Positions 14,894 through 40,095 of a stretch of DNA of 64,000 nt are shown one piece after another. Made by a program: the position numbers and the translations under genes. The notes under the pieces are model-generated. The model worked only from the letters and a program-made list of their open reading frames with translations, was not told the DNA's origin and searched no databases. Location of the stretch: NCBI GenBank assembly GCA_030272585.1, contig BSYQ01000004.1, forward strand, positions 6,944,001 through 7,008,000, in the 5' to 3' direction. Numbering within the stretch: the first letter of the stretch is position 1; the number at the start of each line of letters is the position of its first letter. The DNA is from Bryopsis sp. KO-2023 (taxonomy: Eukaryota; Chlorophyta; Ulvophyceae; Bryopsidales; Bryopsidaceae).

Positions 14894-15342
14894 CGCCTGA
14901 TCATACTATGGATCTGATCGATCTTCCAAAACTAAGGTAATATTAGGTCACAGCAGTAATCCGACATCATAACTGCGTCCTAGAACCGATTTTAGCAATG
15001 ATCGTTTTTTTTTTTTTTTTTTTTCATTTTTGGCTGATCGGTGATCGTGATCGTGATCGGCCGATCAAATGTTGATCGTGCTCTTGATCGTCCGATCACA
15101 AGTTGATCGTGATCGTGATCGGTTCGCCGATCACCGATCTGATCGGTTGTTCCGATCACGATCCCGATCACGATCAAGCGCCGCGACCTGTCGGCACTTC
15201 ATCGGCTGACCTTGATCGGTGTGATCGTGATCGGCCGATCGTGATCGGACCTGCATCCGATCATGATTGGTATTGATCATTTGATCGATGAATTGATCGG
15301 TCTCGCGAAAATACCGACAAGTCACCACCCACAGGTGTTTCT

Positions 15343-15418
15343 GAGGTGGAAGGATTCGAACCGGGTACCTAACGGATTAGAAGCATACTCACTAATGCTT
15401 AGACCACTCGGAGCCACG
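15343..15418 (-). other. tRNA-like module, left arm of MITE-1
   Basis: Minus strand: an A-box-like GTGGCTCCGAGTGGTCTAAGC, then a B box GGTTCGAATCC within CCCGGTTCGAATCCTTCC. The length is that of a tRNA but no convincing anticodon stem forms, so it is a relic or Pol III promoter module rather than a working tRNA. Confidence 0.7.
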
Positions 15419-15501
15419 GTTTGTAGGTCATCCGTGTCATTATATACGTGATCTGTCAGTCCGACAAACTGAGGTATATAATGACACGGATGACCTAGTA
15501 A

Positions 15502-15580
15502 CCGTGGCTCCGAGTGGTCCAAGCGTTAATGCGTCTGTCTCTAGTCTGTTAGGTCCCAGGTTCGAATCCCTGCACCCCAG
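15502..15580 (+). other. tRNA-like module, right arm of MITE-1
   Basis: Plus strand: CCGTGGCTCCGAGTGGTCC (A-box-like) and CAGGTTCGAATCCCTG (B box and T-arm). Inverted partner of 15343-15418, somewhat diverged between the boxes. Confidence 0.7.
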
Positions 15581-15935
15581 AAACACCTGCGGGATGGACC
15601 GATCAATTGACCGATCATGATCCGATCTAATCGGCATCTCTGATCACGATCACGATCACGATCAAGCGTCTCGCCTTGTCGGCGCTTGATCGGCCGATGT
15701 TGGACGGTGTGATCGGCCGATGTTGGACGGTGTGATCGTGATCGGCCGATCAAAGTTGGCCGATTAAATCGGTCAGCCGATCAGATTGGTGATCGGCCGA
15801 TCTCCATCGATGATCGGCCAAACCGATTTGATCGGCGATCGATCTGATCGGAAAAACCCGATCACGATTTAATCGGTCGGACCGATCAATCCACGACCGA
15901 TTAGATCGTGATCGGATCCATAGTATGCGCCTGAT

Positions 15936-18365
15936 TGACTCCCAAGGTACGACATAGTTCTTTGAAGAACTTCGACGTCCACCTTGTATCCCTGTCACTG
16001 ATGAGAGTCTTAGGAAGACCGTGTGAACGGAAAACCTCACCAACAAACAGCCTCGCCGATTCAACCGCATCACAAGTCGTATGTGTAGCAACACATCGAA
16101 CCATCTTTGTGAGTCTGTCTACGAAGACAATGATGGCATCGAATCCACTCGAACCCGACTTAGGCAAATCAGTAATCAAATCCATGGATACTGATTCCCA
16201 TCTACCATCCGGTACACGTAAAGGTTGTAGAGGACCTGGCACCTTGCCGCGTCGGTGCTTATTCCTCTGACACGAATCACATCCTTTCACAAAGTTTGCG
16301 ATATCACCCTCAACGCCAGGCCACCAAAAGTGTTTCAGAACTGCCCTTTGGGTCTTGCGGATCCCAAAGTGTCCGGCATACACACTTTCATGACTTCCAA
16401 TCAGGATCTCTTGCCTTAAGCCATCCCAATCAGGTACCACTATACGTGCCCCATTCCAACACAAGCCTGAGTCATAGTGACAACCATGAGCGGCGACCTC
16501 ACTGGTTTCAAACCACTCATCTTGTGCCAACCCCTCAAGAATTCTATCACTGAGCACCGACGTACCGGTCCGGGGCGAGGACGGATCCCCTTTCCAAGTT
16601 GGTCGTTTCTGGCCACCTCCCAGCTCCGAGAGTATTCCGATCTGCTGAGAATACGACGGATATCGTGACAAGGGATCTGCCACGTTCGTCCGACCCGGCC
16701 TGTATTCCCACTCGAACCGAAAACCCTGGAGGACTTCGAGCCAACGTGCCGATCTCCGTGAAAGAGTTTCTTGGGAATGGAAATATGTATTAGGCTGATG
16801 ATCACACACCACCTTAAACATACGCACATCCAAGTAGCAACGCCACAACTTCAGAGCGTGTACCACGGCGAATATTTCTTTGTCCCCGGTGCTCCAATTA
16901 AGTTGTGCTCCAGATAACTTCCGACTTTCGAAAGCTATTGGATGTCCCTCTTGCAACAAGATTGCCCCGATTGCATAATCCGAAGCATCAGCAATCACTT
17001 CGAAATCCTTATCGAAGTTAGGCATTGCCAAACAAGGCGCATTCGTTAAGCTTTCCTTAACTCCTTTGAATGCCTTTTGACAATCCTCAGTCCAACTCCA
17101 CTCCTTGCCCTTCCTAAGCAAGTTAGTGAGTGGGGCAACAAGTTTGCTGTACCCTTGCACAAACCTCCGAAAGTAATTCGACAGCCCAAGGAAAGAACGT
17201 AACTCATTTACATCCTTCGGGACAGGCCATTCGAATACCTTTGCAGTCTTACGAGTATCCACCGTAATACCGTCTCGGTTTACCACAAAACCAAGATAAT
17301 GGAGCTCATTCTTGAAGAAATCACACTTAGACTTCTTAAGAAAGACCTTGTGCTCACGCAACCGTTCCAATACGGCTCGTAAATGTTGCACATGCTCCTC
17401 GGGGGTTTTGCTGAATACGAGTATATCATCCAAGTATATCAGGACCGACTTCCCGATCATACCGGTGAAAACCCGATTCATCCACGTCTGGAATATCGCT
17501 GGTGCGTTGCACAAACCCATTGGCAACACCCGATATTCATACAGACCAAACGGGGTCTTGAAAGCAGTCTTCGGTTGGTCTGGTTCCTTCACTCGAAGTT
17601 GCCAGTACCCTGCTTTCAAGTCCAAGGCCGAAAAGAACTTCGCACCTTGCAACTGATCAAGGAGATCATCTATCCTTGGTAGAGGATATTGATTCCTGAT
17701 AGTCAGTTTGTTCAAACCTCTGTAGTCAACGCACATGCGCCGGGAACCATCAGGTTTGGGCACAAACAAGATAGGCGCTCCCCATGGACTACAGCTTGGT
17801 TTCACTAAACCCTTTTTCAACATGTCAGCGATTTGCTCCTCGATCTCTTTTCTTTCCTCTGGCGTATACCGAAACATAGGTCTATGAACCGGTTTCGCTC
17901 CAGGGATAAGATCGATCGCTGCATCCTCTTCACGAGCGGGTGGACGTTCAGCCAACTCATCCGCAAATCTGTCCTCATATTCATTCAACAAGTTTTCCAG
18001 CTCACTTGAATGAGACACAGATGGAAGGGATTCAGTTTCGGGTACCCCAGGTTCCTCCCCCTCAACAGGGTGCGGGACCTCCCGAACCAACACAAGAAAA
18101 GGGGAAAGCGAAGATTTCTTCAACCGCCTTTTCACTTGTGAGACACTCAACAAGGGATTGATCCGTGCATTCGATGGAGTAGGGGCACGTAACGCCAAAT
18201 CAGGCCGTAACGTGAGTCGGTTTCCCCGTGTGGATAGAACCGATGCACTGCCCACAGTGAAATCCATCAGAACTCGGTGATTGCGTAACCACACATCCCC
18301 AAGGTACAAATCAAAATGCTTGGCAGTGATCACTTGACACTCGATTTTCATCCGCAAGCCTTGCA
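15936..18365 (-). pseudogene. Element A reverse transcriptase, RNase H and integrase part
   Basis: Fossil pol piece: RT with IYLDDILVFS (YxDD-type active site), an RNase H region (VIADASDYAIGA), a zinc-binding and core integrase region (GCDSCQRNKHRRGKVPG; DLITDLP). It is bounded on one side by MITE-1 and on the other by MITE-2. Confidence 0.93.
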
Positions 18366-18881
18366 TTCGCAAGCAGACCTGGGCCCGACCGGACCGGCAG
18401 CGAAAAACCGGTCCGGTCCGGTCCAACCTGTCCATGGACCGGCTGACCTGTCCGGTCCTGTCCGGTCCAGCGAAAAAACGCCGGTCCTTGCAAGACCGGA
18501 CAGGTTGTGACCTGTCCGGTCCTGTCCACTCCGGTCCAGTCAACCTCGGAAATCTGCAGAAATCTGGACCGGTTTTCTGACAGATTTTCCGTTTTTAGAC
18601 AGGTCACACCCACATTTCGCCTTTATTAGACCGGCGATGTGACCTGTCTAAAACCGGAACGACCCTGTCTTGACAGGGTTGTTCTCCTGTTTTAGACCGA
18701 CCTGGAGCCTGTCTAGAACAGGTCGCACAATTAAGCACTTTTAACGTGCTAATTGTGTATCAATCGACTGAGAACTGATTCAATTGATTAAAGAACGAAG
18801 TATTATTTATTATTTGCATTTTTAATGCATGAATGACGTGAGCCAAGCCCACCAGCCACCAACTAGAGGGAGTCGGTCGAC

Positions 18882-18952
18882 TCAAGGAGGATTCGAACCC
18901 GGGTTGGCTAAGCCCGAGTCGAAGACACTATCACTAGTGGACCCCACCACAG
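18882..18952 (-). other. tRNA-like module, left arm of MITE-2
   Basis: Minus strand: GGGGTCCACTAGTGATAGTG (A-box-like), then CCCGGGTTCGAATCCTCC (B box). The inverted copy spans 19036-19093 and resumes at 26677-26700, because element B inserted between its A and B boxes. Confidence 0.7.
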
Positions 18953-19093
18953 GGACGCTCAAAAGGGGGCCGTTACTTTTAAGTACCCGTTTAATTTTGG
19001 AAAATTAAACGGGTACTTAAAAGTAACGGCCCCCTTTTGAGCGTCCCTGTGGTGGGGTCCACTAGTGATAGTGTCTTCGACTCGGGCTTAGCC

Positions 19094-19360
19094 TGTTAGA
19101 CTTGGGGGTGCAAGTCTAAGAAGAGCTAAAAACTAAAACTTATGAGTCCATGACCTTGAAGCCCATTAATACCATGACCCCCAAGGATCCTAGCGTCCCC
19201 GCATGGTACCTAGGACAACCATCCTAGGTGGGCACCCGACATAGGTCTAGTCATCATGACTAGACCTGACTCACATGTCCACGTCAGCATGACTACGCAT
19301 GACTGTACATGACTGTACATGACTGGACCTGACTGGATGTAGCTCTTAACATCCCTAACA
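19094..19360 (-). repeat. Element B LTR (3' copy)
   Basis: Starts TGTTAGACTTGGGGG and ends ACATCCCTAACA in plus orientation; contains three short CATGACTGTACATGACTG-type repeats. Matches 26405-26671. Confidence 0.95.
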
Positions 19361-19864
19361 TTCCTCCCCCCCTAATCAGTCTCCTCCTGGAGACTCCTTT
19401 CCTCACTTCTATATAGCCCATAGAATGATACAGAGTCCCACAACGAACCCCAACTCTTATCATTCAACTATATAAAGTGTTTCGATAACTTGGAGATGTT
19501 ATCATAAGTGTATTCGTCAGAATAAGCCCCTACTCTGATATAGGTCATCCGAGTCCTTCTCATACACGGAGTGCTTCTCGGATCTACCAAGACCATACAC
19601 TTCTCTACACTGGTGGCGAACCAATGTACATCAACTGAAGTCTCGCAACTTCATCTACTTCCATTTATATTCTCATTTTGAATGGATCCCATCTAGAGTT
19701 CAAAATAGAATATAGCGAGAAATTCAATTTAGTTCACTAGTTCATTGAAAATGAGATATGTTCTTAAACATGTCCTCACTTAACAAGAACTTGATCTCGT
19801 TCACAAGATCTGGAACTCTTTTCATATCGACACTCGATTATGAAGAAACATTACCCCACACAAG

Positions 19865-22800
19865 TCACGAACGAAGTCGCCTACTTCGACGTACCGGTAT
19901 AGGGGGAATCAACGTTGATTTCTTTCTGTTCTGGTACTGCTCTACCAGCTCCCGAGCGTTCTCCAAATTCGCTTCAGGCTCCCAAGAGTTGTGCTCATGT
20001 GAGTATCCCGTCCACTTTACCAAGTATTGCGGAACTACTCGTCGACCGACCTTTACTTCACGGTAGTCGAGGAGGTCTTCTACCTCATACTCCAGTTCTT
20101 CCTGTATATCCACAGGTGGCGGAGGAGGTTGTGTCTTTCCATGCGACCAATACCTCTTAAGTAAAGAAGCATGAAAGACGGGATGAATAGGAAGCGAATC
20201 AGGCAATTCCAATCGGAACGCGACCTGTTCTGCCATCGGTTTTCGTTTTTGGACACCTTCCAAAACACGAAAAGGACCCAACCAACGTGGCAATAACTTC
20301 CTTGATCCAGGGTGTTTCAATTTGATATGTCGTGCATCCAGCAAGACCATATCGCCTACTTGAACATCAACTGGACACCTACGCACATCGGCATAAGTCT
20401 TCATCCTTTGCTGAGCACTTTCTAAACACCGCTTTGCTTTGACAATCGCCTCACGAATGTCCTCGGTCATCTTCTTCACCGCCGGTACTCCAATCTGTGT
20501 CCTTTGTCTACTCAGACCTCCAGGACCCATGACATTCGATGTCTTGGATGGAAGTTGTACCGTTAATGGTGTCCACGGATCTCTACCGTAGTTCAAGAAG
20601 AACGGTGTTTCACCAGTAGCCATCGACTTAGAGTTGTTCAAGGCAAACTCTACCACCGGCAACAAGTCACTCCAATCTCTTTGACGAGGTCCTACGAAAT
20701 GCCGTAAGGTATCTTCGAGGATCCTATTCATTGCTTCAGTCTGTCCATCACTCTGTGGATGAAAAGCTGTCGACAATGCTTGAGTGACCCCTAAGGTCTT
20801 ACAAAGCTCTCTAAAGAACTTTGAAGTCCACCTAGGATCTCTATCGCTTACGAGGTGCTTAGGAAGGCCGTGCAAACGGAAGACCTCAGTAACGAAGAGT
20901 TTCGCCGTTTGTACCGCATCACACGTAGTGTGCGTTGGTACGCATCGCACCATCTTTGTGAGTCGATCCACAAAAACTAAGATGGCATCAAATGCTTCTG
21001 CTCCTGATTTAGGTAAATCAGTAATCAAATCCATTGAAACTGATTCCCATCGACCATCAGGTATACGTAAAGGTTGCAAAGGACCAGGCACCTTGCCGCG
21101 TCGGTGTTTGTTCCTTTGACATGCATCGCATCCTTTTACAAAGTTTGCGATATCTCCCTCTACGCCAGGCCACCAAAAGTATTTCAAGACTGTTCTTTGG
21201 GTCTTGCGGATCCCAAAATGTCCTGCATATACACTTGCATGGCTATCATGTAGGATGTCTTCTCTAAGATTATCCCAATTTGGTACTACTACTCGTGCAC
21301 CATTCCACCACAGGCCTGAGTGCTTTTGACAACCTGAAGCGGCGACATCTTCGGTTTCAAACCACTCATCCCTAGTGATCCCCTCAGTCAATCTCTCCTT
21401 TAGCATCGACGTACCGGGCCGGGGCGAGGACGGATCCCCATTCCAAGTTGGTCGTTTCTGGCCACCTCCCAGCTCCGAGAGTATTCCGATCTGCTGAGAA
21501 TACGACGGATATCGTGACAAGGGGTCTGCCACGTTCGTCCGACCCGGCCTGTATTCCCACTCGAACCGGAACCCCTGGAGGACTTCGAGCCAACGTGCCG
21601 ACCTTCGAGAGAGAGTTTCCTGGGAATGGAAATATGTGTTAGGCTGGTGATCACACACCACCTTAAACACACGCACATCCAGGTAGCATCGCCACAACTT
21701 AAGAGCATGCACTACGGCGAACATTTCCTTGTCACCTATGCTCCAGTTAAGTTGGGCTCCTGATAACTTTCGACTTTCAAAAGCTATAGGATGTCCCTCT
21801 TGCAACAAGATTGCACCGATCGCGTAATCCGAAGCATCCGCGACAACTTCAAAATCTTTTTCGAAGTTAGGCATTGCCAAACAAGGTGCATGTGTTAAAT
21901 TCTCTTTAACACCATCAAAGCCTCTTTGACAATCCTCGGTCCAACTCCACTCTTTACCCTTCCTAAGTAAATTTGTGAGTGGGGCTACAAGCTTGCTGTA
22001 ACCTTGCACAAATCTCCGGAAATAGTTAGAGAGCCCTAAAAATGAACGCAATTCCGCAACGTTCTTTGGGACTGGCCACTCTACTACTTTCTCTGTTTTC
22101 CTCTTATCAGCGGAAATACCATCTTGATTTATAACAAATCCAAGATAGTGAAGCTCTTTCTTAAAGAAATCACATTTTGATCTCTTCAAGAGCATTTTGT
22201 GCTCACGCAAGCGTTTCATCACTGCTCGCAAATGTTGCACATGTTCCTCCGGAGTTTTGCTGAATACAAGTATGTCATCGAGGTATATTAGGACCGACTT
22301 CCCAATCATACCCGAGAATACCCGATTCATCCAAGTCTGGAATATTGCAGGTGCATTCGTCAAGCCCATTGGAAGCACTTTATATTCAAACAGACCGAAT
22401 GGGGTTTTGAAAGCAGTCTTCGGTTGGTCCGGCTCCTTCACTCGAAGTTGCCAATACCCTGCTTTCAAATCTAAGGCCGAAAAGTATTTCGAACCTTGAA
22501 GTTGATCAAGGAGATCATCTATCCTTGGTAGTGGATATTGATTCCTGATCGTCAACTTATTTAAGCCTCTATAGTCGATACACATCCGTCGAGTACCATC
22601 CGGTTTGGGAACAAACAAGATTGGTGCACCCCACGGACTACAACTAGGCTTAATCAAACCCTTCTGCAGCATATCAGAGACTTGCTCCTCAATCTCTTTT
22701 CTTTCACCTGGTGTGTAACGAAACATTGGTCTATGTACCGGTTTCGCTCCAGGGACAAGATCAATTGCTGCATCCTCTTCTCGAGATGGAGGGCATTCCG

Positions 22801-25186
22801 CCAACCCATCTGAGAATCTGTCTTTATACTCATCTAACAGACTTTCCAGCTCTGTTTGATATGAAGACACTAGAGGATTTTTGGGCAATTCGGGTACCCC
22901 AGATTCCTCCCCCTCAAAAGGGTTCGGGACCTCCCGAACTATAACCAGAAAAGGACATAACTCCGTATTACGGAGTTGTCTTCGAGCTTGGGCTATACTC
23001 AACAAGGGATTGATCCGTGCATTAGGCGGACTAGGGGCACGCACAACCAAATTAGGTCGTATCGTGAGTCGGTTTCCCCGTGTAGCTAGAACCGAAGCAC
23101 TACCAGTAGAAAAATTCATCAGTACTCGGTGATTGCATAACCACACATCCCCGAGGTACAAATCAAAATGCTTTGTAGTGATAACTTGACACTCGATCTT
23201 CATCCGCAAGCCTTGCAAACGCAAGTTAATCGAGGTTATCCCTACAATATCCAATGGAGTTCCATCGGCCATTTCGATTTTGGTACCTTGCTTACATCTG
23301 TAACTAAGCCCTGTACTTTCGCAGAAATGCTTAGAGATATAAGCGTAGCCAGCGGCGCCAGAATCTAACAGAATCTGACCAGGGGAACCAGAAATCAAAC
23401 CTTTGAACGACATTGACATTCTGAGATTACAATCCTCTCCTGGAATTGAGTTACCGGGTAACTCCGCTGTAGGTGGATCGTAATATATATCAACGGGCCA
23501 AAGAAGACCTGGTGCTTTACCGCTGCTAAGAGCAAACAATTTTGCTCCTTTTCGATATTGTGCAATCAATCGCATTTGATTGATTTCTTTTTGTCTAACT
23601 GCCATATTATGAGGGATTAATAGACAGCAACTCGTAGTAGAAGGTGACTCTTTCTTGCAAGCAAAATAATGCCTTAAGAATTCATTCAAATTCTTTCGTC
23701 CAGGATCCATCCAAACATGGTGTCCCGCTACTGACGATGCAAGAAACTCTTGTCCAGTGCAAAACTTTTTACAAATCGCAAATCTTTCATCACTAGTAGA
23801 TGAGTCAAAAGTGAACTCTCTACTTGCATTCTGCAAACGATGAAGTTCCGATTTTAAAAGTTGCATTCCAGAGATGCAATCGTTCTCCGGCACCTTCTCT
23901 TCTTTACTAGGCATAGGATCTTGGGCGTCCCCAATGGGATCGACGTCCAAATCATCCTCACCACATCGGATAGAGTCATCATTTCTGTCAACAGACATAA
24001 CCTGGTCAGGGTCATTCTCCACAGAAATATCCGATTTGTTCTCGGGCTTCGTAATATCCGTATCCATCGGATCAAATATTACATCTTTCGGATCTGAGTT
24101 TTTCGATACCTCCTTTCGAGATAACCCAGATGCGAGAACTTCTATACTAGGAAGTTCTTTCCCGAAACAAGCGAGACTCTTCCGTACCTTTCCAGTATCA
24201 CACACATGACCTGGAGAATAAGATGCTCCACATCTGAAACAAAGGTTCGCGGCCTTGCGCCGTTCCCACTCTTTCTGGGTAAGACCCGCAGGAAAAGATG
24301 TTTTACCAACTTTACTCTTACGAGTCTGTTGAGAACTACCACCAAATCTCGGTGAAAAACTCGGCATCATTCGGTTTTTCTTTCGATTAACCGGATACAC
24401 CTTTCCTTTTTCCTCTTTTCGAGATCTCTTTGATCCAACGGTACTTTCCTCCTTTTCTTTGGCACCTTTTTCCAATACTGGGTATCGCTCATCATGCGAT
24501 ACTCCTTTTGCCAATACATGGGTACGGAATTCCTCATATGAAGTCCATTCATGACCCGAAGTATCAGTGGCAACCGCTTCCTTCAACACTCCATGGAGGT
24601 TGCGGTGTAAGAACCAAATTTTTGAAATACTATCAATTTTGGTCTTACGAAGAGTAAAATATGTGTCCATTTGGCGCACATATTCTCCAGTATTGCATCG
24701 CCGGTTAATGTGGTCTTTGAATGTGGACAGTTTTTGCGTCACCGCATATTCGGTGGCCAACTCACCAAAACTTCCATCATCCATAGCAATACACATTTCC
24801 TCCCAAGTCAGGTTTCCTCCAGAAATTTTCTCTTCCCCGACTCGAGCGATGAGGTGCTTGATTCCCTTGGGTCCTAAGAATGTTGGTCCAATCCGACCCC
24901 ATTCTTCTCGAGGAACCCCCTCGGCAATCCAAAAGATCTCCAAAATGACCTTATGTTCTTTCCAAGGACATTGGCCATCAAATTTATCAGGTTTGGCCGT
25001 GGAAGACTTTTTACTTCCCGACCCTACAGAAGTACTACCCTTTCTGGTAGCCACTTCTCGTTCCCTTTCACGGTCATCGACCTCTTTACGGAACGCCTGA
25101 TGTTCAGATTGCATTAAAGCAATCCGACTTTGGACTACCGTTAAGGTGGTGATGTCCTCTTCACCAGAAGGGTCTAGTCTCGACAT
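19865..25186 (-). CDS. Element B gag-pol polyprotein (chromovirus)
   Basis: 1773 codons in one frame. Order: gag with capsid-like region (about residues 60-260); CCHC-type knuckle CFRCGASYSPGHVC; linker; aspartic protease around LLDSGAAGYAYI; RT with IYLDDILVFS; RNase H; integrase zinc finger (CDACQRNKHRRG) and core; C-terminal chromodomain (VVPQYLVKWTGYSHEHNSW). The start MSRLDPSGEED is the first Met after the leader. Gag and pol fused in one frame is common in chromoviruses. Same family as element A by protein similarity. Confidence 0.95.
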   Translation of the reverse strand: MSRLDPSGEEDITTLTVVQSRIALMQSEHQAFRKEVDDREREREVATRKGSTSVGSGSKKSSTAKPDKFDGQCPWKEHKVILEIFWIAEGVPREEWGRIGPTFLGPKGIKHLIARVGEEKISGGNLTWEEMCIAMDDGSFGELATEYAVTQKLSTFKDHINRRCNTGEYVRQMDTYFTLRKTKIDSISKIWFLHRNLHGVLKEAVATDTSGHEWTSYEEFRTHVLAKGVSHDERYPVLEKGAKEKEESTVGSKRSRKEEKGKVYPVNRKKNRMMPSFSPRFGGSSQQTRKSKVGKTSFPAGLTQKEWERRKAANLCFRCGASYSPGHVCDTGKVRKSLACFGKELPSIEVLASGLSRKEVSKNSDPKDVIFDPMDTDITKPENKSDISVENDPDQVMSVDRNDDSIRCGEDDLDVDPIGDAQDPMPSKEEKVPENDCISGMQLLKSELHRLQNASREFTFDSSTSDERFAICKKFCTGQEFLASSVAGHHVWMDPGRKNLNEFLRHYFACKKESPSTTSCCLLIPHNMAVRQKEINQMRLIAQYRKGAKLFALSSGKAPGLLWPVDIYYDPPTAELPGNSIPGEDCNLRMSMSFKGLISGSPGQILLDSGAAGYAYISKHFCESTGLSYRCKQGTKIEMADGTPLDIVGITSINLRLQGLRMKIECQVITTKHFDLYLGDVWLCNHRVLMNFSTGSASVLATRGNRLTIRPNLVVRAPSPPNARINPLLSIAQARRQLRNTELCPFLVIVREVPNPFEGEESGVPELPKNPLVSSYQTELESLLDEYKDRFSDGLAECPPSREEDAAIDLVPGAKPVHRPMFRYTPGERKEIEEQVSDMLQKGLIKPSCSPWGAPILFVPKPDGTRRMCIDYRGLNKLTIRNQYPLPRIDDLLDQLQGSKYFSALDLKAGYWQLRVKEPDQPKTAFKTPFGLFEYKVLPMGLTNAPAIFQTWMNRVFSGMIGKSVLIYLDDILVFSKTPEEHVQHLRAVMKRLREHKMLLKRSKCDFFKKELHYLGFVINQDGISADKRKTEKVVEWPVPKNVAELRSFLGLSNYFRRFVQGYSKLVAPLTNLLRKGKEWSWTEDCQRGFDGVKENLTHAPCLAMPNFEKDFEVVADASDYAIGAILLQEGHPIAFESRKLSGAQLNWSIGDKEMFAVVHALKLWRCYLDVRVFKVVCDHQPNTYFHSQETLSRRSARWLEVLQGFRFEWEYRPGRTNVADPLSRYPSYSQQIGILSELGGGQKRPTWNGDPSSPRPGTSMLKERLTEGITRDEWFETEDVAASGCQKHSGLWWNGARVVVPNWDNLREDILHDSHASVYAGHFGIRKTQRTVLKYFWWPGVEGDIANFVKGCDACQRNKHRRGKVPGPLQPLRIPDGRWESVSMDLITDLPKSGAEAFDAILVFVDRLTKMVRCVPTHTTCDAVQTAKLFVTEVFRLHGLPKHLVSDRDPRWTSKFFRELCKTLGVTQALSTAFHPQSDGQTEAMNRILEDTLRHFVGPRQRDWSDLLPVVEFALNNSKSMATGETPFFLNYGRDPWTPLTVQLPSKTSNVMGPGGLSRQRTQIGVPAVKKMTEDIREAIVKAKRCLESAQQRMKTYADVRRCPVDVQVGDMVLLDARHIKLKHPGSRKLLPRWLGPFRVLEGVQKRKPMAEQVAFRLELPDSLPIHPVFHASLLKRYWSHGKTQPPPPPVDIQEELEYEVEDLLDYREVKVGRRVVPQYLVKWTGYSHEHNSWEPEANLENARELVEQYQNRKKSTLIPPIPVRRSRRLRS

Positions 25187-26404
25187 CTTAAAGAAGGCTA
25201 GTGATTAACCTGCATCGCAGGAAAATCAATCCAGCAGCAAAATTTTCCTCATGTATATTGGTTCTTATCAAAGTACCAACTATACATTGACATTCGTGGA
25301 TCAAATTTGTATCTCAATACAAATCATCCCTATGAAAATTGACCTTGTATTCAGTGAAAATCATTCACTTTCGCAAATACAATCAATTTTCATTGAAGGC
25401 AACTCATTTTGCCTCATGCCAAATCAAGAAAATAATCGCTATTCATTCTCTCATTTTAGCGGATTATCTCTTCAACTCGATTTTATCGATCAACAATCGT
25501 CTGTCTCCATTAGCGAATTACGACAAGTCCTATTCCTCTAGGCTCAAGAGAGCGTACCATACCATACGAACCACTAACAAAAGCCCTCAATTTTACACAG
25601 ACCACTGCGCTAGCAAACCGATCCCGAAAGACCAGGGGTCTAGTGATTTCAAAGGGCAATAGTGGCTCTCCGTACAGCTAGGATAGGAGTGCCGAGTAAC
25701 GCTCTTTAGACGTGAAAATTGCCGAATCGATTTAATCAAATATCCAAGATCAACCCTAATAAAACTCAAGAGAAATGAACTTCCTTCCTCTTACTTCCCT
25801 CATCTCCTTTTATTGACCAAATAAAAGGTCTCCTTTTGTTATACCGACTCAAGCTCCCCTAGCTCTTGAGTCCTTATACTCGTTCCACCATCTAAGAGAG
25901 TACTCTTAGTGGCTTCTCGCGAGCACATGGTACAACAACCTCTTTACTCTTAGTATCTTCAGGTGTTAACCCTGCCCATACAAAGTTAACCCCACCCTTT
26001 GGATAAAAGAGAAACTTTTATAGTTCAAAAACTATACTATCTTGAAGTCGCAACGTGTCGACGTTCAAAATGATTCTAAAACATCATTTCGATCGTCCAA
26101 CACCTAGAACCGACACGGGCGACCTCAAAACACCCAAATTCCGACGCGAAACTTTAAAACGTCATAACTTTGCGCACACGCATCGGATTCACTCGCAACA
26201 AATTGCAACGGATGCATCTTGTTCCGTAGATGCTTTTAGACACCTTATATGTTCGATTCCGTGACGTATACGGTCCGGAACGGGCCAAAACGTGTCGCTA
26301 ATCGAACAGCTCCGATTTCCCTGCAGAAAATCCGCGCGCCGCAATAAGCAGTGCGACTCCACTCTCCACACGATAGGATGCTTGCCAAAGCTCCGAAACC
26401 AAGT
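25187..26404 (-). other. Element B 5' leader
   Basis: About 1.2 kb between the 5' LTR (on the minus strand) and gag-pol, AT-rich with no supported gene. The primer-binding site TGGTTTCGGAGC (minus) lies at about 26391-26403. Confidence 0.7.
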
Positions 26405-26671
26405 TGTTAGACTTGGGGGTGCAAGTCTAAGAAGAGCTAAAAACTAAAACTTATGAGTCCATGACCTTGAAGCCCATTAATACCATGACCCCCAAGGATC
26501 CTAGCGTCCCCGCATGGTACCTAGGACAACCATCCTAGGTGGGCACCCGACATAGGTCTAGTCATCATGACTAGACCTGACTCACATGTCCACGTCAGCA
26601 TGACTACGCATGACTGTACATGACTGTACATGACTGGACCTGACTGGATGTAGCTCTTAACATCCCTAACA
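26405..26671 (-). repeat. Element B LTR (5' copy)
   Basis: 267 bp, matches 19094-19360; followed by TAGCC, the target duplication. Confidence 0.95.
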
Positions 26672-27205
26672 TAGCCAACCCGGGTTCGAATCCTCCTTGA
26701 GTCGACCGACTCCCTCTAGTTGGTGGCTGGTGGGCTTGGCTCACGTCATTCATGCATTAAAAATGCAAATAATAAATAATACTTCGTTCTTTAATCAATT
26801 GAATCAGTTCTCAGTCGGTTAACACATTAAAAAGTGCTTAATTGTGTGACCTGTTCTAGACAGGTGCCAGGTCGGTCTGGACAGGCGGCCCACCTGTCCA
26901 GACCGACTTGGAGTCGGTCTAAAACAGGTCACATTGGGCGTCACATCGGTCTAAAACAGGGTCACACCGGTCTAAAACAGGTCACACGAGTATGACCGTA
27001 CTAGACAGGCGACAACCTGTCTGGAAAGGTCAAATCCGGTCTAGAAAGGTCAAATCCGGTCTAGAAAAGGTGGCCTTTACTAGACCGGATTTGACCTTTC
27101 TTGGACCGGAGTTGACCTTTCCAGACCGGAGTTGACCTGTCTAAGAAAGGTCAAATCCGGTCCAGAAAGTGGTTGCCGGTCCGGTCCGGTCCAACGGTTC
27201 GCAAG

Positions 27206-28167: not shown

Positions 28168-28172
28168 TCCTG

Positions 28173-29113: not shown

Positions 29114-29548
29114 TTTTTGGTTTCGGAGCCCGAAGGAACCGACTGGACTGGAGCTCTCCGCTGGTTTGACCAGCAGGTTTGTTCGAGGCGCTTAACGCCA
29201 GTTGTAAGGTCGTGGGAAAACGGAAAAAAAGGCAAACGCAGTGAACGGGAAAAAAGGAAAACGTGTGGTAGCAACGTTGGAAAAGAATCACACCCATAAA
29301 AAGAGAGAAAAGAGGGTGCCAACGTTCAGTCGTGTGACAGGACGTTTGGGAAAAAGGTTACCCTGTAACCTGCGTCGCTGTCAGCGAACTGTAGTACTCA
29401 GGTTCGAAGGGTTAGAGTCGGACGTGAAGGGGTATAGTAGTATTACGTATAGTAACTCTCACGGCAAGGGCACGTGGGTTATCCGTTCACAGTTCGGCAA
29501 GGACAGGTCGTGGCGCGAAAGTCAACGGTCTACAGTTGACAGTAACCG

Positions 29549-31831: not shown

Positions 31832-34800
31832 AAGAGGAGGCTAGTGTTGGGTCAGCTAAGCCTCCAGATGATATTGAAATGAAAGAACCCACTACAAAAA
31901 CACCAGCCTCACTAAATGATGGTGTTCAAGAGACACCTGTGGTTGCAGCCCCTATTGCAACAGAACAGGAAGCATACACACTGGATGGGGTCACTCCAGG
32001 AGTGTTAATTCAAAAGAAAAAGCAGTCTCAAAAGAGAGTGGATAAACAAACAGAGGCCACTGTGAGTTTACCCACTAGAGTGGAAGGAAATGTTGAGGGA
32101 AAGGAACCAGTTCAGACTGCAGTAGCTCAGGCTACAGCAGCATATAGAGGATATGAACTGGCAGGATTTATTGGTGCAAAGAAAGCTACAGCATACATTG
32201 ATACAGGATCCACTGCTAACTATATTAGCATGGATGCAGTCAAGGAACTGGGACTACAATACAAACCACAAGAAACTCCTGTTAAGTTTCTAGATGGTAC
32301 AGAAAGGAAATCAGTGGGGAGATGTTTTGGCATCCCATTTGTCTGTGGAAAGATCCAGCTCTCATTTGATGCTGATGTCTTTCCAGACAGTAATCACCCA
32401 ATCCTACTGGGATTGCCCTGGCTCATACACTATAATCCCAAAGTGGATTTTAAGTCAGGAATAATCACAGTAAACAAGGGCAAAAAGAGTGTAAAATTAC
32501 CACTCTCAGTGATGCCTGAATATCAGCTCAAACCCACTGGAGCTACAGAACTTTCCTTTTGTTCTAGTGGCAGAATCAAAAGACAGATAGAAAAAGGGGA
32601 AATCAAACACATCATCATGGTGGTGATTAGGCCAGAGGATGAATCAAAGACTGGAGTAGAAACAATCCCAGAACAAAGGGAAGGGGATGATCTACAGAAA
32701 ATCCTGCAGGAGGATATGGATCCCAGGATTAAGGAAGTACTGACTCAGTACAGAAAAGTATTTGCAAAAGATTTGCCTAAGGGTGTACCTCCTACCAGGC
32801 TGGGTCATGAATTCAGGATTGATCTGGAGGAGGGTACAGAACCCATGTATAGACCCCTATACAAACTGTCTCCTCTTGAGTTAGATGAGGTTAAAAGACA
32901 GTTAGATTACCTGTTGGAGATGGATTTCATAGAACCATCACAGTCACCATTTGGGGCACCAATCCTGTTTGTCCCTAAGAAAGATGGAGGGCTCAGGATG
33001 TGCCTGGATTACAGATGGCTCAATAAGAAAACCATCAAAAACAGATACCCTCTGCCCTTACCAGAGGAGATGATTGACAGGGTACATGGGGCTAGATATT
33101 TCACTAAGATTGACCTGAGATCAGGCTACTGGCAGATGCCTCTAAGGGAAGAGGATAGGCCTAAGACTGCCTTCAGAAGTAGATTTGGACACTATCAGTT
33201 CAAAGTGCTTTCTTTTGGACTTACTAATGCTCCAGCACAATATATGAACATGGTTAATGACATCTTCAAGGATATGCTGGATATCTTTGTGCTGATCTTC
33301 ATTGATGATCTCTTAATCTATTCTAAGAGCATCTCTGAGCATGTAGAGCATTTAGCAGCAGTCTTAGCCAGGCTACAGAAGTATAGTCTGTTTGCCAAGG
33401 CCACCAAAAGTGAAATCTGTGTGAAGGAAACAGATTTCTGTGGATTTTGGTTGAGTGAAAAAGGGATCTCAGCAATGGATGTGAAAGTTAAGGCAATCAG
33501 GGATTGGAAGCCCTTAAAAACAGTTACTGATGTCAGAAGTTTTCTGGGGATGGTATCCTTCTATAGAAGATTCATCCCAGACTTTGCAAAGATAGCAGGC
33601 CCTCTGCATGACTTAACTAAGAAGGATGTCATGTGGGAGTGGGGCTCTGCTCAGGAACAAGCTTTTCAATCACTTAAAACTGCATTGATGGGGAAACCAG
33701 TGCTGATCCATCCTAATCCAGTGAAAGATTACACTGTGATTAGTGATGCATCTGGGGAAGCAACTGGAGGAGTCCTTTGTCAGGATCATGGCTCTGGATT
33801 ACAGCCCATAGCCTTCTGCAGTAGGAGATTATCAAAGTCAGAACAGAATTACTCAGTATATGAAAGGGAACTCCTGGGAATAGCCTACTGCTTGATGCAG
33901 TGGAGGCACTATTTAGAGGGCTGCCCAGGAGAAGTCACAGTCTTTACAGACCACCAGCCACTAACTAATTTCATGGATCAAAAGATGATGTCAAGACCCC
34001 AAGCCAGGTGGCTCAGGGCAGGACATTTCCTCAGCATCAAACCAAAAATTCAGTACATCCAAGGGAAACTGAATCTGGTTGCTGATGCACTATCAAGAAG
34101 TCTTCCAGCAGAGCAGGAACTCAAAGTAGTGAGTTCATTACAGCCTAGCACAGAAGAGATTACACTCTGGGAACAAGCAACACTGGCAGATGTTGAGATC
34201 AAGGACATCTACACTCAAATACTGGATGGGGAGAGAATTCCAGGCTATGGAATTAATGAATCAGGATTATTGATTTATCAAACTCAGGATGGACTTATGA
34301 AATTATGGGTTCCTCAGGAACTGAGGATGAAAGTCCTTACAGAAGGACATGATAATCAAATCTCTGGACATTTGGGAATAGAGAGAACTCTGGAGCTGAT
34401 GTCCAGGAAATACTACTGGACTAATATGAAAAAGGATGTCCAGGAATATGTCAGGACATGTAAGGTTTGCCAGCAAATGAAACCTGAGTTAAGAGCTCAG
34501 AAGGGATTGCTGCAACCTATTCCAGTAGCTGATAAGAAATGGGATCAGATCACTACTGATCTAGTGACTGATTTACCCCCTGTGGATGGATTTGATTCAA
34601 TTGCAGTGTTTGTTGATAGATTGACTAAGATGGTAAAGTTTATACCCTGCAGCAAAACAATAGATGCACCAGGGTATGCAAGGATATTCTTTGATCACAT
34701 CTTCAGGAATCATGGGATTCCCAGTGTGATAATCAGTGATAGGGACACTAGATTTGCTAGTAAATTCTGGCAGGAATTAATGAGATGTGTGGGGACTAAA

Positions 34801-35613
34801 GTAAGGATGTCCACAGCCTTCCATCCTCAAACAGATGGACAAAGTGAAGTCAGCATCAGAACATTAGAGAATTTCCTAAGACCCTATGTGGAAGAGCATC
34901 CAGAGACATGGATGCAGGGATTAGGGATGGCTGAATTTGCAGCCAACAATGCTGTACACACATCTACAGGATACAGCCCCTTCTACTTGATGTATGGGGT
35001 GCATCCTCAGCTGCCAGGAGATCTACTGGCTGGAAAAGCTCAAGCTGAAGCAGAATCAGTGCAAGAGATGATATCTCATATGCAGGAAGTCATCAATGAT
35101 GCCAAAGACAGATATAAGACAGCTCAAGAGAAGATGAGGCAGCAAGCTAATAAGAAAAGGAGGGATGTACAGTTTCAAGTGGGAGAAAAGGTGTTGCTCT
35201 CCACAAAGACATTGAATTTATCAGTCTTGAAACACATCCCAGCAAAAATCAGAAGAAGATATATAGGGCCTTTTGTTATTGCTGCTGCAGTGGGATCTGT
35301 GGCATATAGATTGGTGTTACCAGATGGATGGAAATTACATCCTGTATTTCATGTATCAAAGTTGAGAAAACTTCAGGAGAGTTCAAAGTTTCCTAGGGAG
35401 GTAATGGCACCTCCAGCAGAATTAGATTCTGAGGGAGAAGAAGAATTTGAAGTTGAGGCTGTAGTAAGACATAAGTTTTCAGGAAGAAAAAGGAGATTTT
35501 TAGTAGTCTGGAAGGGGTATCCACTTAGTGAAGCAACATGGGAACCCCAAGACAATTTACTAAATGCATCAGAGATCCTGGCTGATTATAAGAGGAGAGC
35601 TGGGATCAGGTAG
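31744..35613 (+). CDS. Element C pol
   Basis: 1289 codons. Aspartic protease (AYIDTGSTANYI), RT (FIDDLLIYS), RNase H (ISDASGEATGG), integrase zinc finger (CKVCQQMKPELRAQKG) and core (DLVTDLPP; FHPQTDGQSEVS), then a C-terminal chromodomain-like VVWKGYPLSEATWEP. The first residues overlap gag; the real start is set by frameshifting near the knuckle. Confidence 0.93.
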   Translation: MFSMWKHRAWGETVSQTVPSSESPEEGKLKEEASVGSAKPPDDIEMKEPTTKTPASLNDGVQETPVVAAPIATEQEAYTLDGVTPGVLIQKKKQSQKRVDKQTEATVSLPTRVEGNVEGKEPVQTAVAQATAAYRGYELAGFIGAKKATAYIDTGSTANYISMDAVKELGLQYKPQETPVKFLDGTERKSVGRCFGIPFVCGKIQLSFDADVFPDSNHPILLGLPWLIHYNPKVDFKSGIITVNKGKKSVKLPLSVMPEYQLKPTGATELSFCSSGRIKRQIEKGEIKHIIMVVIRPEDESKTGVETIPEQREGDDLQKILQEDMDPRIKEVLTQYRKVFAKDLPKGVPPTRLGHEFRIDLEEGTEPMYRPLYKLSPLELDEVKRQLDYLLEMDFIEPSQSPFGAPILFVPKKDGGLRMCLDYRWLNKKTIKNRYPLPLPEEMIDRVHGARYFTKIDLRSGYWQMPLREEDRPKTAFRSRFGHYQFKVLSFGLTNAPAQYMNMVNDIFKDMLDIFVLIFIDDLLIYSKSISEHVEHLAAVLARLQKYSLFAKATKSEICVKETDFCGFWLSEKGISAMDVKVKAIRDWKPLKTVTDVRSFLGMVSFYRRFIPDFAKIAGPLHDLTKKDVMWEWGSAQEQAFQSLKTALMGKPVLIHPNPVKDYTVISDASGEATGGVLCQDHGSGLQPIAFCSRRLSKSEQNYSVYERELLGIAYCLMQWRHYLEGCPGEVTVFTDHQPLTNFMDQKMMSRPQARWLRAGHFLSIKPKIQYIQGKLNLVADALSRSLPAEQELKVVSSLQPSTEEITLWEQATLADVEIKDIYTQILDGERIPGYGINESGLLIYQTQDGLMKLWVPQELRMKVLTEGHDNQISGHLGIERTLELMSRKYYWTNMKKDVQEYVRTCKVCQQMKPELRAQKGLLQPIPVADKKWDQITTDLVTDLPPVDGFDSIAVFVDRLTKMVKFIPCSKTIDAPGYARIFFDHIFRNHGIPSVIISDRDTRFASKFWQELMRCVGTKVRMSTAFHPQTDGQSEVSIRTLENFLRPYVEEHPETWMQGLGMAEFAANNAVHTSTGYSPFYLMYGVHPQLPGDLLAGKAQAEAESVQEMISHMQEVINDAKDRYKTAQEKMRQQANKKRRDVQFQVGEKVLLSTKTLNLSVLKHIPAKIRRRYIGPFVIAAAVGSVAYRLVLPDGWKLHPVFHVSKLRKLQESSKFPREVMAPPAELDSEGEEEFEVEAVVRHKFSGRKRRFLVVWKGYPLSEATWEPQDNLLNASEILADYKRRAGIR

Positions 35614-35869
35614 AAGTTAGATGCACTTTTGATTCTGTGGCTGAAGGATCAGGAATCCCAGAGACTAGGGGATGGGTTGCATAAGGGCAGTGAAGTGTTT
35701 TCTGAACTTCTGTGGGTTAAGGATTTTATGGGGATCTAATTATCCTTTCAGAAGTGCAGGGAGCTTGGGATTTGCATCACCCTAGTTCAGAGTTACTTTT
35801 ACAGAATCAGAAGGATGCATTTGATGGATACTTGGTGAGGGCACCAACTGCCCCCAGGGGGGAGGCAAT

Positions 35870-36383
35870 TGATACCAGCTGCTGACGTCCAGGGACGTCA
35901 GACGTCAAAAGCGTCATGCATCTGACGTCTGTGAAGCGTCAGATGCATCCCCGGTGAATGACAGCATCCTCCCAAGGAGGTACTACTGAACTACAGCGAG
36001 GAAACCACCGCAAGAGCACAGAGTCAAGACAGTGGTTCGATCAGCCAGATTAGGACTTGCGAGACTGAGGTCTTGTGTTCGAGTCTGAGTGGGAACGTGC
36101 TTTGGTCTGGGCCTGTGTGTGAGAGTGTGAGTGAGTCAGGAGTAGAACTGGCGGCTGTGAGTCAGGGTAGTGGGAGTGTTACGGGTGGTTAGTCACCCTC
36201 GGGAAAGTCGAACTGGGAGTTGAAATGATGGGACGCTTGATGTAACCTTGCTTTTCAGTGATCTGTTGGTGTGACCCCGAGTCTGTGACCCGTGCGATTT
36301 TGTGTGACTGTTCCGCCGCCGCCTCACTCTTTTCCGAGATAGGAGACGTCGCTCGTGGACGTCAGTCCTCCCGAGCGATAACA
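35870..36383 (+). repeat. Element C LTR (3' copy)
   Basis: 514 bp, matches 28600-29113; followed by the GAATC duplication. Confidence 0.95.
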
Positions 36384-36388
36384 GAATC

Positions 36389-37363
36389 ACACACGTGACC
36401 CGGTTGGTATGGTGCACCGCACTTGAAACGCAAACTGGCTGCTCTACGCCTCTCGAGTTCCTTGGGACTCAAGCCAAAAGAGCGTTTCTCATTTCCCCGA
36501 CGCATCCGCGTTGGTTGAGAATCACCACCACGACCTGGTGTGAAAGCCGGAGTCGATCGAAACTTCTTTCGACTATTCGACCGTTCTTTGCTCTTTTCGT
36601 TTGTTTCATTGCGCTTTTTGCTCTTTCTGTCCTCTTCGTCACTCTTCTGTGACAACACTGGCGTTCGCTCATCGTGCGAAACCCCTTTTGCCAACACATG
36701 AGATCGGAAACCCTCATACGAGGTCCATTCCTTTCCCGAAGTATCCGTTGCAACCGCTTCTTTCAACACACTGTGCAAGTTGCGGTGTAAGAACCAAATC
36801 TTGGTGATATCATCCACCTTGGTCTTACGCAGGGTAAAGTATGTGTCCATCTGACTAACATACTCTCCAGTGTCACACTTCCGATTGATATGGTCCCTGA
36901 ATGTGGCCAGTTTTTGAGTTATGGCATACTCTGTAGCCAACTCACCAAAACTACCATCATCCATGGCGGTACACATATCCTCCCACGATAGGGCACCTTG
37001 GGACACACTGTCCTCACCCACACGTGCAATGAGGTGTTTGATCCCCTTGGGACCCAAATAGGTTGGACCTATTTTACCCCACTCGGAACGAGGCACACCC
37101 TCAGCATTCCAGAAAATTTCTAAGGTCACCTTGTGCTCAGCCCATGGACATTGTCCATCGAACTTGTCCGGTTTTCCAACCGCGGACCTTTTAGCACCTC
37201 TGCGGCTTTCGACCTCTTTCTGAAAATTTTCTTGCTGGGTTCTCAACAAAACCAACTCCCTTTGCAACTCTGCAACTGTGGGAGCTACCACTTCTGGCTC
37301 CTCGGTCTGACCTCCGACCAAGTCTTGAACCTCAAGGCCAGTAGACCCCTCTGGTTGAGCCAT
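36389..37363 (-). pseudogene. Element A gag
   Basis: Fossil gag beginning MAQPEGSTGLEVQDL, with the capsid-like region (GKPDKFDGQCPWAEHK; TYFTLRKTKVDDI) and a knuckle near FKCGAPYQPGHVC. Element C sits at its downstream end. Confidence 0.92.
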
Positions 37364-38030
37364 TTTCCTCACACCTTCTATTGACCAAATAAAAGGGAAC
37401 ACACTCACTGAAGCTCTCCAAGCACTTCAGTACAACTGTACTCTTTCCACCATCCAAGACACAACTGCCCTTGGTATGCTATGTAGCACTAAGGCTTCTC
37501 GAGAGCACACACACACACACACTAGAGCTCTCTAGGGTCTTGATCTTAGCTCAAGGAGAATAAATCTCAGCAACCCCAGTCACAGCCCTCACTGATGTTT
37601 GTGGGTTTCCAGAAAAACCTCAGCCCACTTTCACTTGCTTATCCACCCAAAAGAAAACACCCCTTTGAGTAGCAACAAGCCCTATGGACCCAAACAAGCA
37701 CACAGCACCACCAAAACTCTCCAACACTTGTCTTAGGGTACTTGACCTGACCCTTACCCTAACCTAGGGTAAAACACTCAGTGAACAAGAAAACACCCCA
37801 AGTTTTCCTTCGCGAACCCAAACGAACCACTATAGGCCACCCTGAAAAACGTCAGGATCTTCAAACGCCCATAACTCGCTCGTCTGAACTCCGATAACAA
37901 AGCAACAAACTGTTCTGGAAAGCTCTTTTTCTGTAGATACTTTGTGCAACCTTGGAATCCCAATTCCGAGTCGTGTGCGAGCTGTAGCAGCCGAAAACGT
38001 GCGCTAATCGTCACTTGCTCCGAAACCAAC
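37364..38030 (-). other. Element A 5' leader and primer-binding site
   Basis: AT-rich leader with a CA run near 37510-37523. The primer-binding site TGGTTTCGGAGC (minus) lies at about 38018-38029, directly inside the LTR. Same site as in B and C. Confidence 0.8.
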
Positions 38031-38271
38031 TGTTTAGAACCTCTCCTGCACGACCTTGTCGCCAAAAGAAGCCCTCTGGACAGCCCCTTGAAGTCCTTTA
38101 ACCCTCCAACCCCATGGGTCCCATCAACCACGTGGAGGAACCTAGCAAGCTAGGCGGACACCCTGTCCAGTCACATCACCCATCAGGGGGGATGTGACAT
38201 CGACCACCCACTACACCACGCCACCCACATGGCTAGTGGAGGCGGCACACTCAGGCAAGGAGGGCATAACA
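38031..38271 (-). repeat. Element A LTR (5' copy)
   Basis: 241 bp, matches 13199-13438 apart from about two differences. Confidence 0.95.
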
Positions 38272-39630
38272 ATGTTGCATGGCGTCTGCACTGCCAGCTG
38301 CATCAGTTGGTTGTGCCTCTGTCGAATTCGGTGGAGGTGGTGGAGGTGGCACGAATTCAGTCGCTCGCTTCGGCGGAGGCATCAAGAACTTTCGTGACCC
38401 CAACTGCCACTGCATATTCATCTGTTTCTTGGATCTGTTCTGCCAAAGTTTTAATGGCACCTTAATTTCGCCCATAAATGCTTCAAAATCCGGATCCAAG
38501 GTAGTCTTGATTCGTGGTTTCCTTACACCTCCATCCGTGTTCCGTTGCCGCTTCCCCACCATTGCAGACTCCACTGCCGGGCATGGGGACAAATTAATCG
38601 TTTCTGGAGCCGAACCAGGAACCTCCGTTACACGTGCCAATCGTGCCTGGTCATTTCGATTCGCAGTGCGCTGTGGGCAACGATCAGCCCAATGGTCTGG
38701 TGCCTGACAAATGTAACACCGACCCGCAGGTGTTTGTTTATCGTTCTGACCTCCCAGTGGCACTTGATTACTGCCTGTCGCAATTGGTGGTCGACTACTG
38801 TTCTGCCAGTGCACAGTTGGCCGCTCTTTCCTTGTCTGTGTGGTTTGCTGCGCAGCCATTCGCGTCACCACATCCGTTAGCTTTCCAACTTGTGCTGCCA
38901 ATGATGCGATTTCCTGATTAACTGCCCCTGGTGCCGGTAGCGCCAGAAATGGAGTCGCCTGGAATGTTGGTGTAGGTGGTTCTTCCACACTCGATGCTTG
39001 TACTGGTCGAGGGAGGAGAGCTGGTGCTGGAGTGAGAGGAGAATCGGTCCTTATCCTTTGTTTGTATGTGATTATTTCAGCCGCCTGGGTGGCAAACTGT
39101 TTTGCCTTTTTGATTGTGTCAGGCATTTTGTTCATAACCTTCTCCTGTACATCCGATGCGAGTCCACGCAAAAACGCCTTGATCTGCTCCTGCTCAGAAA
39201 CGGCTCCTCCAGCTTTGTTGGTTACACGCTCGAATCGGAGGGTGTATGCTGCGACGGTATCACCGGCGGTCATCCGCACTTTGCGTAAGTCATCAGCGAA
39301 ATCCTGTACTAATCCCAGCAGCACAGCGCCCTCTTTCGCGAAGTTCGTCCGGATTTCACTCCAATCATACTTCGTCCGCCCGCGTGTATCCACTGTAATA
39401 GTGAGATTGACCAATCGCTCGCACCAGTGGCGATATTCCTTGATGCAAAAGAACGGAAGTCGTTTGGCCGCCATTTCGTCACTCCAGACTTGTGTTTTTC
39501 CCAGCCAACCTTCGAACGAGTCGAGAAAGTCATCTTCGAACGAGTCGAGAAAGTCATCTTCGAACGAGTCGAGAAAGTCATCTGGGTCCCGACATTGAGC
39601 GTTGAACTCGGGAACAGCCAATCCAGTGAG

Positions 39631-40095
39631 CAGAGATAGGACTTTACGGTTACGGTCACCGTAACCGGACCGTAACCACCGTAACCGGACCGTAACCGGA
39701 GTACAATTTTCGTCAGAAAATCGTACTTTTACGGCCGTAACCGTAGCACCGTACCACTCCGTACCGCTCCGTACCGGACCGTAACGACCGTAACGGCCGT
39801 AACAACCGTAAACCGTAGAAAGTGACCCCCGCAGGGTCCCGCGATTCCAAAGGAACCCAGGGGGATTCGAACCCGCGACCCTACTGACTGCAGCCTAACG
39901 CTTTAGCACTGAACCACGCTACTTCACGGTGATTTAGGGCCTACCGTAGTTATACCGTACCTGTTCCGTACCGTAAAAACAACATATTACTCCGGTTACG
40001 GTACGGAGTTACGGCCGTAGTACGGTGACCGTAACCCGACCGTAACCGGACCGGACCGGAGTCGGACCAAAAATTTGGCCCAAGTCCTATCTCTG
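39631..40095. mobile_element. MITE-3: hAT-like element with tRNA-like module and CCGTAAC array
   Basis: 465 bp. Terminal inverted repeats CAGAGATAGGACTT at both ends. 8-bp duplication CCAGTGAG (39623-39630 and 40096-40103). The interior is packed with CCGTAACCGGACCGTAACC-type motifs, plus one tRNA-like module. Termini and duplication length fit the hAT superfamily. Non-coding. Inserted in element D's gag. Confidence 0.92.
39858..39922 (-). other. tRNA-like module in MITE-3
   Basis: Minus strand: GCGTGGTTCAGTGCTAAAGC (good A box) and GCGGGTTCGAATCCCCC (good B box) with a possible anticodon loop CTGCAGT. The most tRNA-like of the modules, though acceptor pairing is poor. Confidence 0.72.

Follow-up and report, generated by a model that had tools for sequence, protein, structure and literature searches.

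In the green alga Bryopsis sp. KO-2023, the centres of several families of hAT-type miniature inverted-repeat transposable elements (MITEs) have a layout like that of an RNA polymerase III (Pol III) promoter, and in one pair of families nearly the same centre lies between unrelated arms. We analysed a stretch of 64,000 nucleotides (contig BSYQ01000004.1, positions 6,944,001 to 7,008,000; the window), which contains the three elements MITE-1, MITE-2 and MITE-3, together with their relatives in the 91-Mb genome, including two families found outside the window, M1b and M4. Our reading as a whole, to which we give a probability of about 0.6, is that these are hAT MITEs mobilised in trans, that their Pol III-promoter-like interior cassette has moved between lineages, and that it is kept for accessibility. 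MITEs are usually regarded as deletion derivatives with an irrelevant interior; here the promoter-like layout is common to five families and is homologous in some of them. These elements make a testable case for the interior of a MITE contributing to its success, and such a contribution would link Pol III factors to the amplification of DNA transposons.

A preliminary description of this DNA had named three elements sharing a plan of 8-bp direct repeats, short terminal inverted repeats (TIRs) and motif arrays, and had compared them with hAT elements. The three positions and the plan of TIRs and arrays were confirmed, and the hAT affiliation is supported by the 8-bp target site duplications (TSDs), the TIRs and coding partners with the domain PF05699. 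MITE-1 (14902..15927, plus strand) is a hAT-type non-autonomous element with the TIR CATACTATGGATC and arrays of GATC motifs, flanked on the left (14894..14901) and on the right (15928..15935) by the TSD CGCCTGAT. The genome contained 314 first-look candidates for MITE-1, and scoring of the best 40 gave a list of 40 full-length matches, with partial ones besides. All 30 fetched copies had an exact 8-bp TSD, and their median pairwise identity was 98.6% (gaps left out). MITE-3 (39631..40095, plus strand) has the TIR CAGAGATAGGACTT, an array of TACGGT/ACCGTA and the TSD CCAGTGAG on both sides. The search for MITE-3 gave 554 candidates; each of the 40 best, which were scored, was identical over 465 bp. 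There are therefore at least 40 identical copies, which as the best-scoring ones do not give the family average. An exact 8-bp TSD was again found in 30 of 30 fetched copies. MITE-2 (18374..27197, plus strand; left TIR CAGACCTGGGC, 3′ TIR absent in the window copy) is split by a long terminal repeat (LTR) element and has the TSD TTCGCAAG at 18366-18373 and 27198-27205. For MITE-2 the 8-bp duplication was exact in two of the five copies inspected (the window copy and L065) and was not seen in the other three (L003, L066 and L067, the last two judged by eye). All three elements are short, homogeneous, present in high copy number and bounded by TIRs, as expected of MITEs. By TSD, TIR and coding partner, MITE-1 and MITE-3 are hAT MITEs, and MITE-2 is less securely so.

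The interior modules consist, in order, of a TATA-like box, an A box about 40 bases further on and a B box about 45 bases beyond that. Measured from GTTCGAA, the modules read of MITE-1, M1b, MITE-2 (TTAAAA), MITE-3 and M4 have their TATA-like box at -82 to -85, and those of MITE-1, M1b, MITE-3 and M4 also have an A box at -44 or -45, with 9 or 10 matches in 11 positions. These four families thus have the A- and B-box spacing of tRNA genes that is the mark of a type 2 Pol III promoter; MITE-2 does not. In four of the five families the modules form a head-to-head, outward-facing pair. In MITE-1 the left module, on the minus strand, has the B box GGTTCGAATCC at 15352..15362, the A-box-like TGGTCTAAGCA (9/11) at 15396..15406 and the TATA-like box TATATAAT at 15439..15446, and the right module, on the plus strand, has the TATA-like box TATATAAT at 15475..15482, the A-box-like TGGTCCAAGCG (10/11) at 15515..15525 and the B box GGTTCGAATCC at 15559..15569; the pair (15325..15597) is an 83% inverted repeat. 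Both B boxes were exactly kept in 27 of the 30 fetched copies, and in the other three one box was not exact. MITE-2 also has two modules, the left with a B box at 18889..18899 and the TATA-like TTAAAAGTAAC at 18972..18982 (both minus strand), and the right with TTAAAAGTAAC at 19017..19027 and its B box at 26683..26693, beyond the inserted LTR element (both plus strand). The single module of MITE-3, on the minus strand, has a B box at 39863..39873, the A-box-like TGGTTCAGTGC (10/11) at 39906..39916 and the TATA-like GGTATAAC at 39949..39956. The layout is like that of a Pol III promoter, and on this basis the modules may have promoter activity. Where a tRNA-like part with A and B boxes had been proposed for each element, we found B-box modules in all three and good A boxes in two, the A box of MITE-2 being weak; the modules are better described as promoter cassettes with an upstream TATA, arranged as divergent pairs in MITE-1 and MITE-2, than as tRNA-like sequences.

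The identity of the modules as tRNA genes was rejected, as neither Rfam (in a scan in which MITE-2, alone among the three, was represented by its copy at 63.8 kb of the window) nor ARAGORN made a tRNA call. ARAGORN at lowered thresholds returned meaningless lists, and Rfam matches to miRNA precursors were below the gathering scores and were taken as palindrome artefacts. The lack of a tRNA call would suit a chance resemblance, in which B-box-like words simply occur in repetitive DNA, and so would the alignment results: for each of the four modules aligned, the best local match to the tRNAs of locus L035 scored above all 100 shuffles, and a single B-box site chosen outside the modules did so too, by a smaller margin. 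However, of the 215 distinct GTTCGA contexts that the examined sequence contains, the 41 with both TATA and A box all lay in MITE modules, and they are variants of four module types, not independent cases. An A box only was present in 10 contexts (nine in tRNA genes, the tenth in a module interrupted by a MITE-1 insertion), TATA only in eight (five MITE-2 modules, the left MITE-1 module of the window, one extra L029 module and one chance site), and neither in 156. The 11 tRNA genes read in L035, which belong to a single array unit, all lacked a TATA within the 60 bases 5′ of them. Given this geometry, and the central dimers that M1b and M4 have in common despite unrelated arms, we consider a chance resemblance extremely improbable, and descent of the modules from tRNAs is likely, as judged from the alignments. 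Two other B-box-like words with T-arm-like stems, at 1219-1229 and 8026-8036 of the window (minus strand), lie outside the three MITEs and lack the TATA/A geometry.

The evidence for movement of the cassette comes from M1b and M4. M1b, in locus L001, is a MITE with the MITE-1 TIR, related arms and the TSD ACTGGCAG, and M4, in L007 and L032, has the TIR CAGAGCTGGGC, a CGTTAC array and the exact TSDs GTGGGGAC and CCCTGGCC; the 8-bp TSD was therefore exact in both M4 copies and in the one M1b copy checked. The central dimers of M1b and M4 were 89% identical over 341 bp, whereas no match between their arms was found at E<=1e-3; the arms of MITE-1 and M1b do match. The centre and the arms therefore have different histories, and the cassette has passed from one hAT lineage to another. 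In addition, a 59-bp tail of the MITE-3 module (39814..39872, plus strand) is common to M1b and M4 (83-86%), and MITE-1 is 74% identical to MITE-3 over 57 bp. Hence the families, which had been taken as unrelated, are not wholly independent in design, since the cassette is homologous in some lineages.

An alternative is that the modules are short interspersed nuclear elements (SINEs) that were caught in MITEs and passively carried. The tail common to MITE-3, M4 and M1b and the SINE-like look of the A/B-box heads would agree with this, as would the unpaired cassette edges, which could be solo copies. One edge of the dimer occurred 54 times on one strand and 56 times on the other, and 22 of the 100 matches listed were unpaired; however, the other 78 formed 39 close pairs, 36 of which had exactly 298 bp between the edges, so that the edge is mostly found in pairs at a fixed distance. 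(A longer edge pattern, with up to three mismatches allowed, occurred 106 and 101 times.) Furthermore, the TATA-to-B spacing is conserved across families, and the sequence beside the M1b and M4 dimers is inverted, not directly repeated. SINE insertions with target duplications of their own, which the preliminary description had considered as a possible source of the modules, were thus not seen at the two dimers inspected, both of which belong to related families. We regard capture of SINEs as unlikely.

It could also be that the palindromic centre matters rather than transcription, with a hairpin that aids amplification, or an origin as a foldback, and promoter boxes that are relics. The centres of MITE-1, M1b and M4 are indeed inverted repeats (83, 94 and 92%), which reach into the arms in M1b and M4. 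On the other hand, MITE-3, with its at least 40 identical copies, has a single module and no such pair, and the TATA-to-B spacing is preserved in diverged modules, and such a role of the palindrome is therefore distinctly improbable in our judgement. Under our preferred reading of a cassette that is exchanged, the transfer between lineages would most likely have taken place where MITEs are nested, through a switch of template while a gap was being repaired. MITE-1 copies were found nested in M4 (L007 and L032), M1b (L010), MITE-3 (L018) and MITE-1 (L029), and such nesting would favour exchange of this kind.

The motif arrays were quantified relative to 100 mononucleotide shuffles. MITE-1 contained 75 GATCGG-type hexamers compared to a shuffle mean of 1.0, and MITE-3 contained 19 TACGGT compared to 0.2; the counts were far above those of shuffles both in the MITEs and in the ends of coding elements. 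The motifs had been thought unique to each family, but GGTCCGG occurred five times in MITE-2 and five times in MITE-3, so they are not fully so. In the complete coding elements L068 and L069 the GATC-array motifs were concentrated in the ends: there were 64 in 800 bp of ends and 9 in the 6535-bp interior of L068, and 93 in 800 bp of ends and 16 in the 5408-bp interior of L069. The interior hexamers were near or modestly above expectation (9 relative to 6.4 and 16 relative to 5.5, respectively), and the bare GATC word was raised in the interiors too (154 relative to 52 and 88 relative to 41).

For hAT dimerisation domains the genome gave 185 candidates, of which 150 were scored, so that at least 150 are present, and PF05699 is present in L068, L069, L072 and L075. 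L068 (457-7791) is a complete element of 7335 bp with an open transposase frame, the TSD CCACACAC, the 10-bp core of the MITE-1 TIR and GATC arrays at both ends, and L069 (187-6394) is a related complete element of 6208 bp with the TSD AGTACAGG that shares this 10-bp core and likewise has a GATC array at each end. Both have a second open frame beside the transposase (4358-5404 in L068 and 1093-2583 in L069), with a similar C-terminal region when compared by eye. Within the listed range, 25 hAT domains were grouped as MITE-1-type by frame length; the exact 13-bp TIR of MITE-1 was found 2.8-3.4 kb on the 5′ side of 16 of these 25, compared to 1 of 10 domains of other types. For MITE-3, two 350-type hAT domains fell within the stretch covered by the TIR matches listed, and 3′ of each, at 1.1 or 1.5 kb, lay an unpaired MITE-3 TIR. 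L078, which adjoins a 350-type domain, has the MITE-3 TIR and a TACGGT array and is 97% identical to the MITE-3 end over 105 bp; its repeat is of the same kind as that in the 3′ part of L072. Therefore, coding hAT elements with the same TIR and array exist for both MITE-1 and MITE-3. A candidate partner for MITE-2 is one C1 domain with a 194-type-like score, which has a MITE-2 TIR in the correct orientation at a distance of about 1 kb, and this link is weak; L075, which has MITE-2-like motifs in an intron, is of the 194 type. The suggestion that hAT transposase genes would carry the same motif fields at their own termini thus held for MITE-1 and MITE-3, and the evidence for MITE-2 is suggestive. 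The module with joint geometry was not seen in L068 and L069 (complete) or in the partial coding loci L070-L075, L077 and L078; L076 contains a MITE-1 copy.

Two transposase genes contain arrays in an intron, the limits of which were read from splice signals and frame continuity. In L072 the intron has 12 TACGGT at 1887-2186, an array like that of MITE-3, and in L075 it has 5 ACAGGTC and 10 GTCYAGA at 1086-1482, an array like that of MITE-2; the rest of each locus had none or one such motif, and the TIRs of MITE-1, MITE-2 and MITE-3 were not found in either locus. The intron arrays are possibly a feedback site for the transposases.

A model for the amplification of these MITEs would be as follows. 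Lineage-specific hAT transposases would act in trans on the MITEs, recognising the common TIR and the lineage-specific array, and TFIIIC/TFIIIB bound to the cassette would keep nucleosomes sparse on the element and protect it from silencing, which would let the transposase reach the arrays. That the cassette persists through such binding, because it keeps the MITE open to transposase, is a tentative proposal for which we put the odds somewhat below even. We are more doubtful of the wider proposal that a transferable Pol III promoter cassette enables the amplification of unrelated hAT MITE lineages, with the same arrays in introns of the transposase genes of two lineages as feedback. The cassette might instead work by its transcripts, in that outward Pol III RNAs would serve as decoys or as sources of small RNAs that blunt silencing, or would form R-loops that open the ends. 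The outward-facing pairs of four of the five families would fit this, as would the absence of a T4 run between B box and element end in four of the nine arms examined, but the outward T-runs agree with the shuffled expectation. Depletion of outward terminators, which was suggested by 10 outward compared to 29 inward runs (binomial p 0.003), was rejected, because the outward number is that of shuffles and the inward number is high (29 relative to 9.5). An action through transcripts seems to us improbable.

Several observations weigh against our reading of a retained cassette in hAT MITEs mobilised in trans. The outward T-runs, that is, terminators, are not depleted (10 relative to 12.3 expected from shuffles). 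The letters of the boxes were mildly more conserved than their surroundings (12/170 compared to 46/350 differences, pooled Fisher p 0.025), with none of the five comparisons significant singly and the comparisons not independent, which gives weak support for constraint on the box letters. The A box of MITE-2 is displaced as well as weak (best 9/11 at -38), and its proposed coding partner is supported by a single TIR position together with the intron array of L075. Nine of the 25 domains grouped with the MITE-1 lineage lacked the exact TIR at the expected place. Finally, L029 has a TATA/B-box module at about 215-330, with an A box of 9/11, outside recognised MITEs, and so this layout may also exist outside MITEs. 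Sequences similar to this L029 module are present at C5:6500705, C11:904511, C14:1778588 and C14:1794541.

Other features of the copies are as follows. The LTR element within MITE-2, called gypsy B in the preliminary description (a label given from the letters alone), occupies 19094..26672 and is not part of the MITE; its LTRs are identical (268/268 bases) and its TSD is TAGCC. Its insertion point is in the right module of MITE-2, immediately ahead of the B box. The empty sites of MITE-1 and MITE-2 are visible in gypsy B, which is a paralog of the LTR element hosting both. On the right, the window copy of MITE-2 stops ~17 bp short and is without the 3′ TIR, which L065 retains. A second copy with the same module, cut by the window end, lies at 63482..64000 (minus strand), and L003 is a 683-bp form that retains a single module. 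With the left part of MITE-2 (717 bases) as the query, 256 candidates were obtained and 40 scored, and 33 of the listed matches covered the entire query by our count. Within the listed range, 11 of 26 MITE-2 TIR pairs were spaced 1254 to 1347 bp apart, 13 were shorter and 2 longer, and 38 of 43 MITE-3 pairs were spaced 465 to 467 bp apart, the others being 330, 436, 446, 451 and 581 bp. The 581-bp pair joins one TIR to that of a neighbouring copy, and the 330-bp pair, judged from spacing alone, could lack the module. Older MITE-3 copies were met in fetched flanks, four at ~86% identity, all with exact TSDs, and one at 95%. The MITE-3 copies of L035 and L036 have common flanks in a tandem array and represent one duplicated insertion event. 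This array (C5, about 3.11 Mb) has a unit of ~3.46 kb, and the unit read contains 11 tRNA genes called by ARAGORN and a MITE-3 copy; the genome as a whole gave 8630 first-look tRNA candidates, of which 63 were scored. A MITE-1 copy in L008 (near 1500) sits in CCCTAAA repeats close to a contig end, which suggests a telomere of the TTTAGGG type.

No description of a hAT MITE with a Pol III-like cassette was found in a literature search that was limited to titles and the starts of abstracts and covered few subscription journals. The hAT MITEs of the Ac/Ds type have the same 8-bp TSD, short TIR, subterminal motif arrays and coding partners with PF05699, and the elements described here differ from them by the Pol III-promoter-like cassette in the centre, usually as a divergent pair. 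Foldback elements likewise have long central inverted repeats, but here there are hAT termini and a target duplication, and MITE-3 has no paired modules. The tRNA-derived SINEs have A and B boxes at tRNA spacing and a tail sequence behind the head, as do the modules, which differ in moving as DNA with hAT TSDs, in the upstream TATA, in the head-to-head dimer and in having, at the two inspected dimers, no TSD of their own. Extra-TFIIIC sites and tRNA-gene (tDNA) barriers are similar in having a B box outside tRNA genes and a proposed role in chromatin; the modules differ in that they reside in high-copy DNA transposons and that their binding is predicted from sequence. By analogy, the MITE modules may work like such TFIIIC-bound sites.

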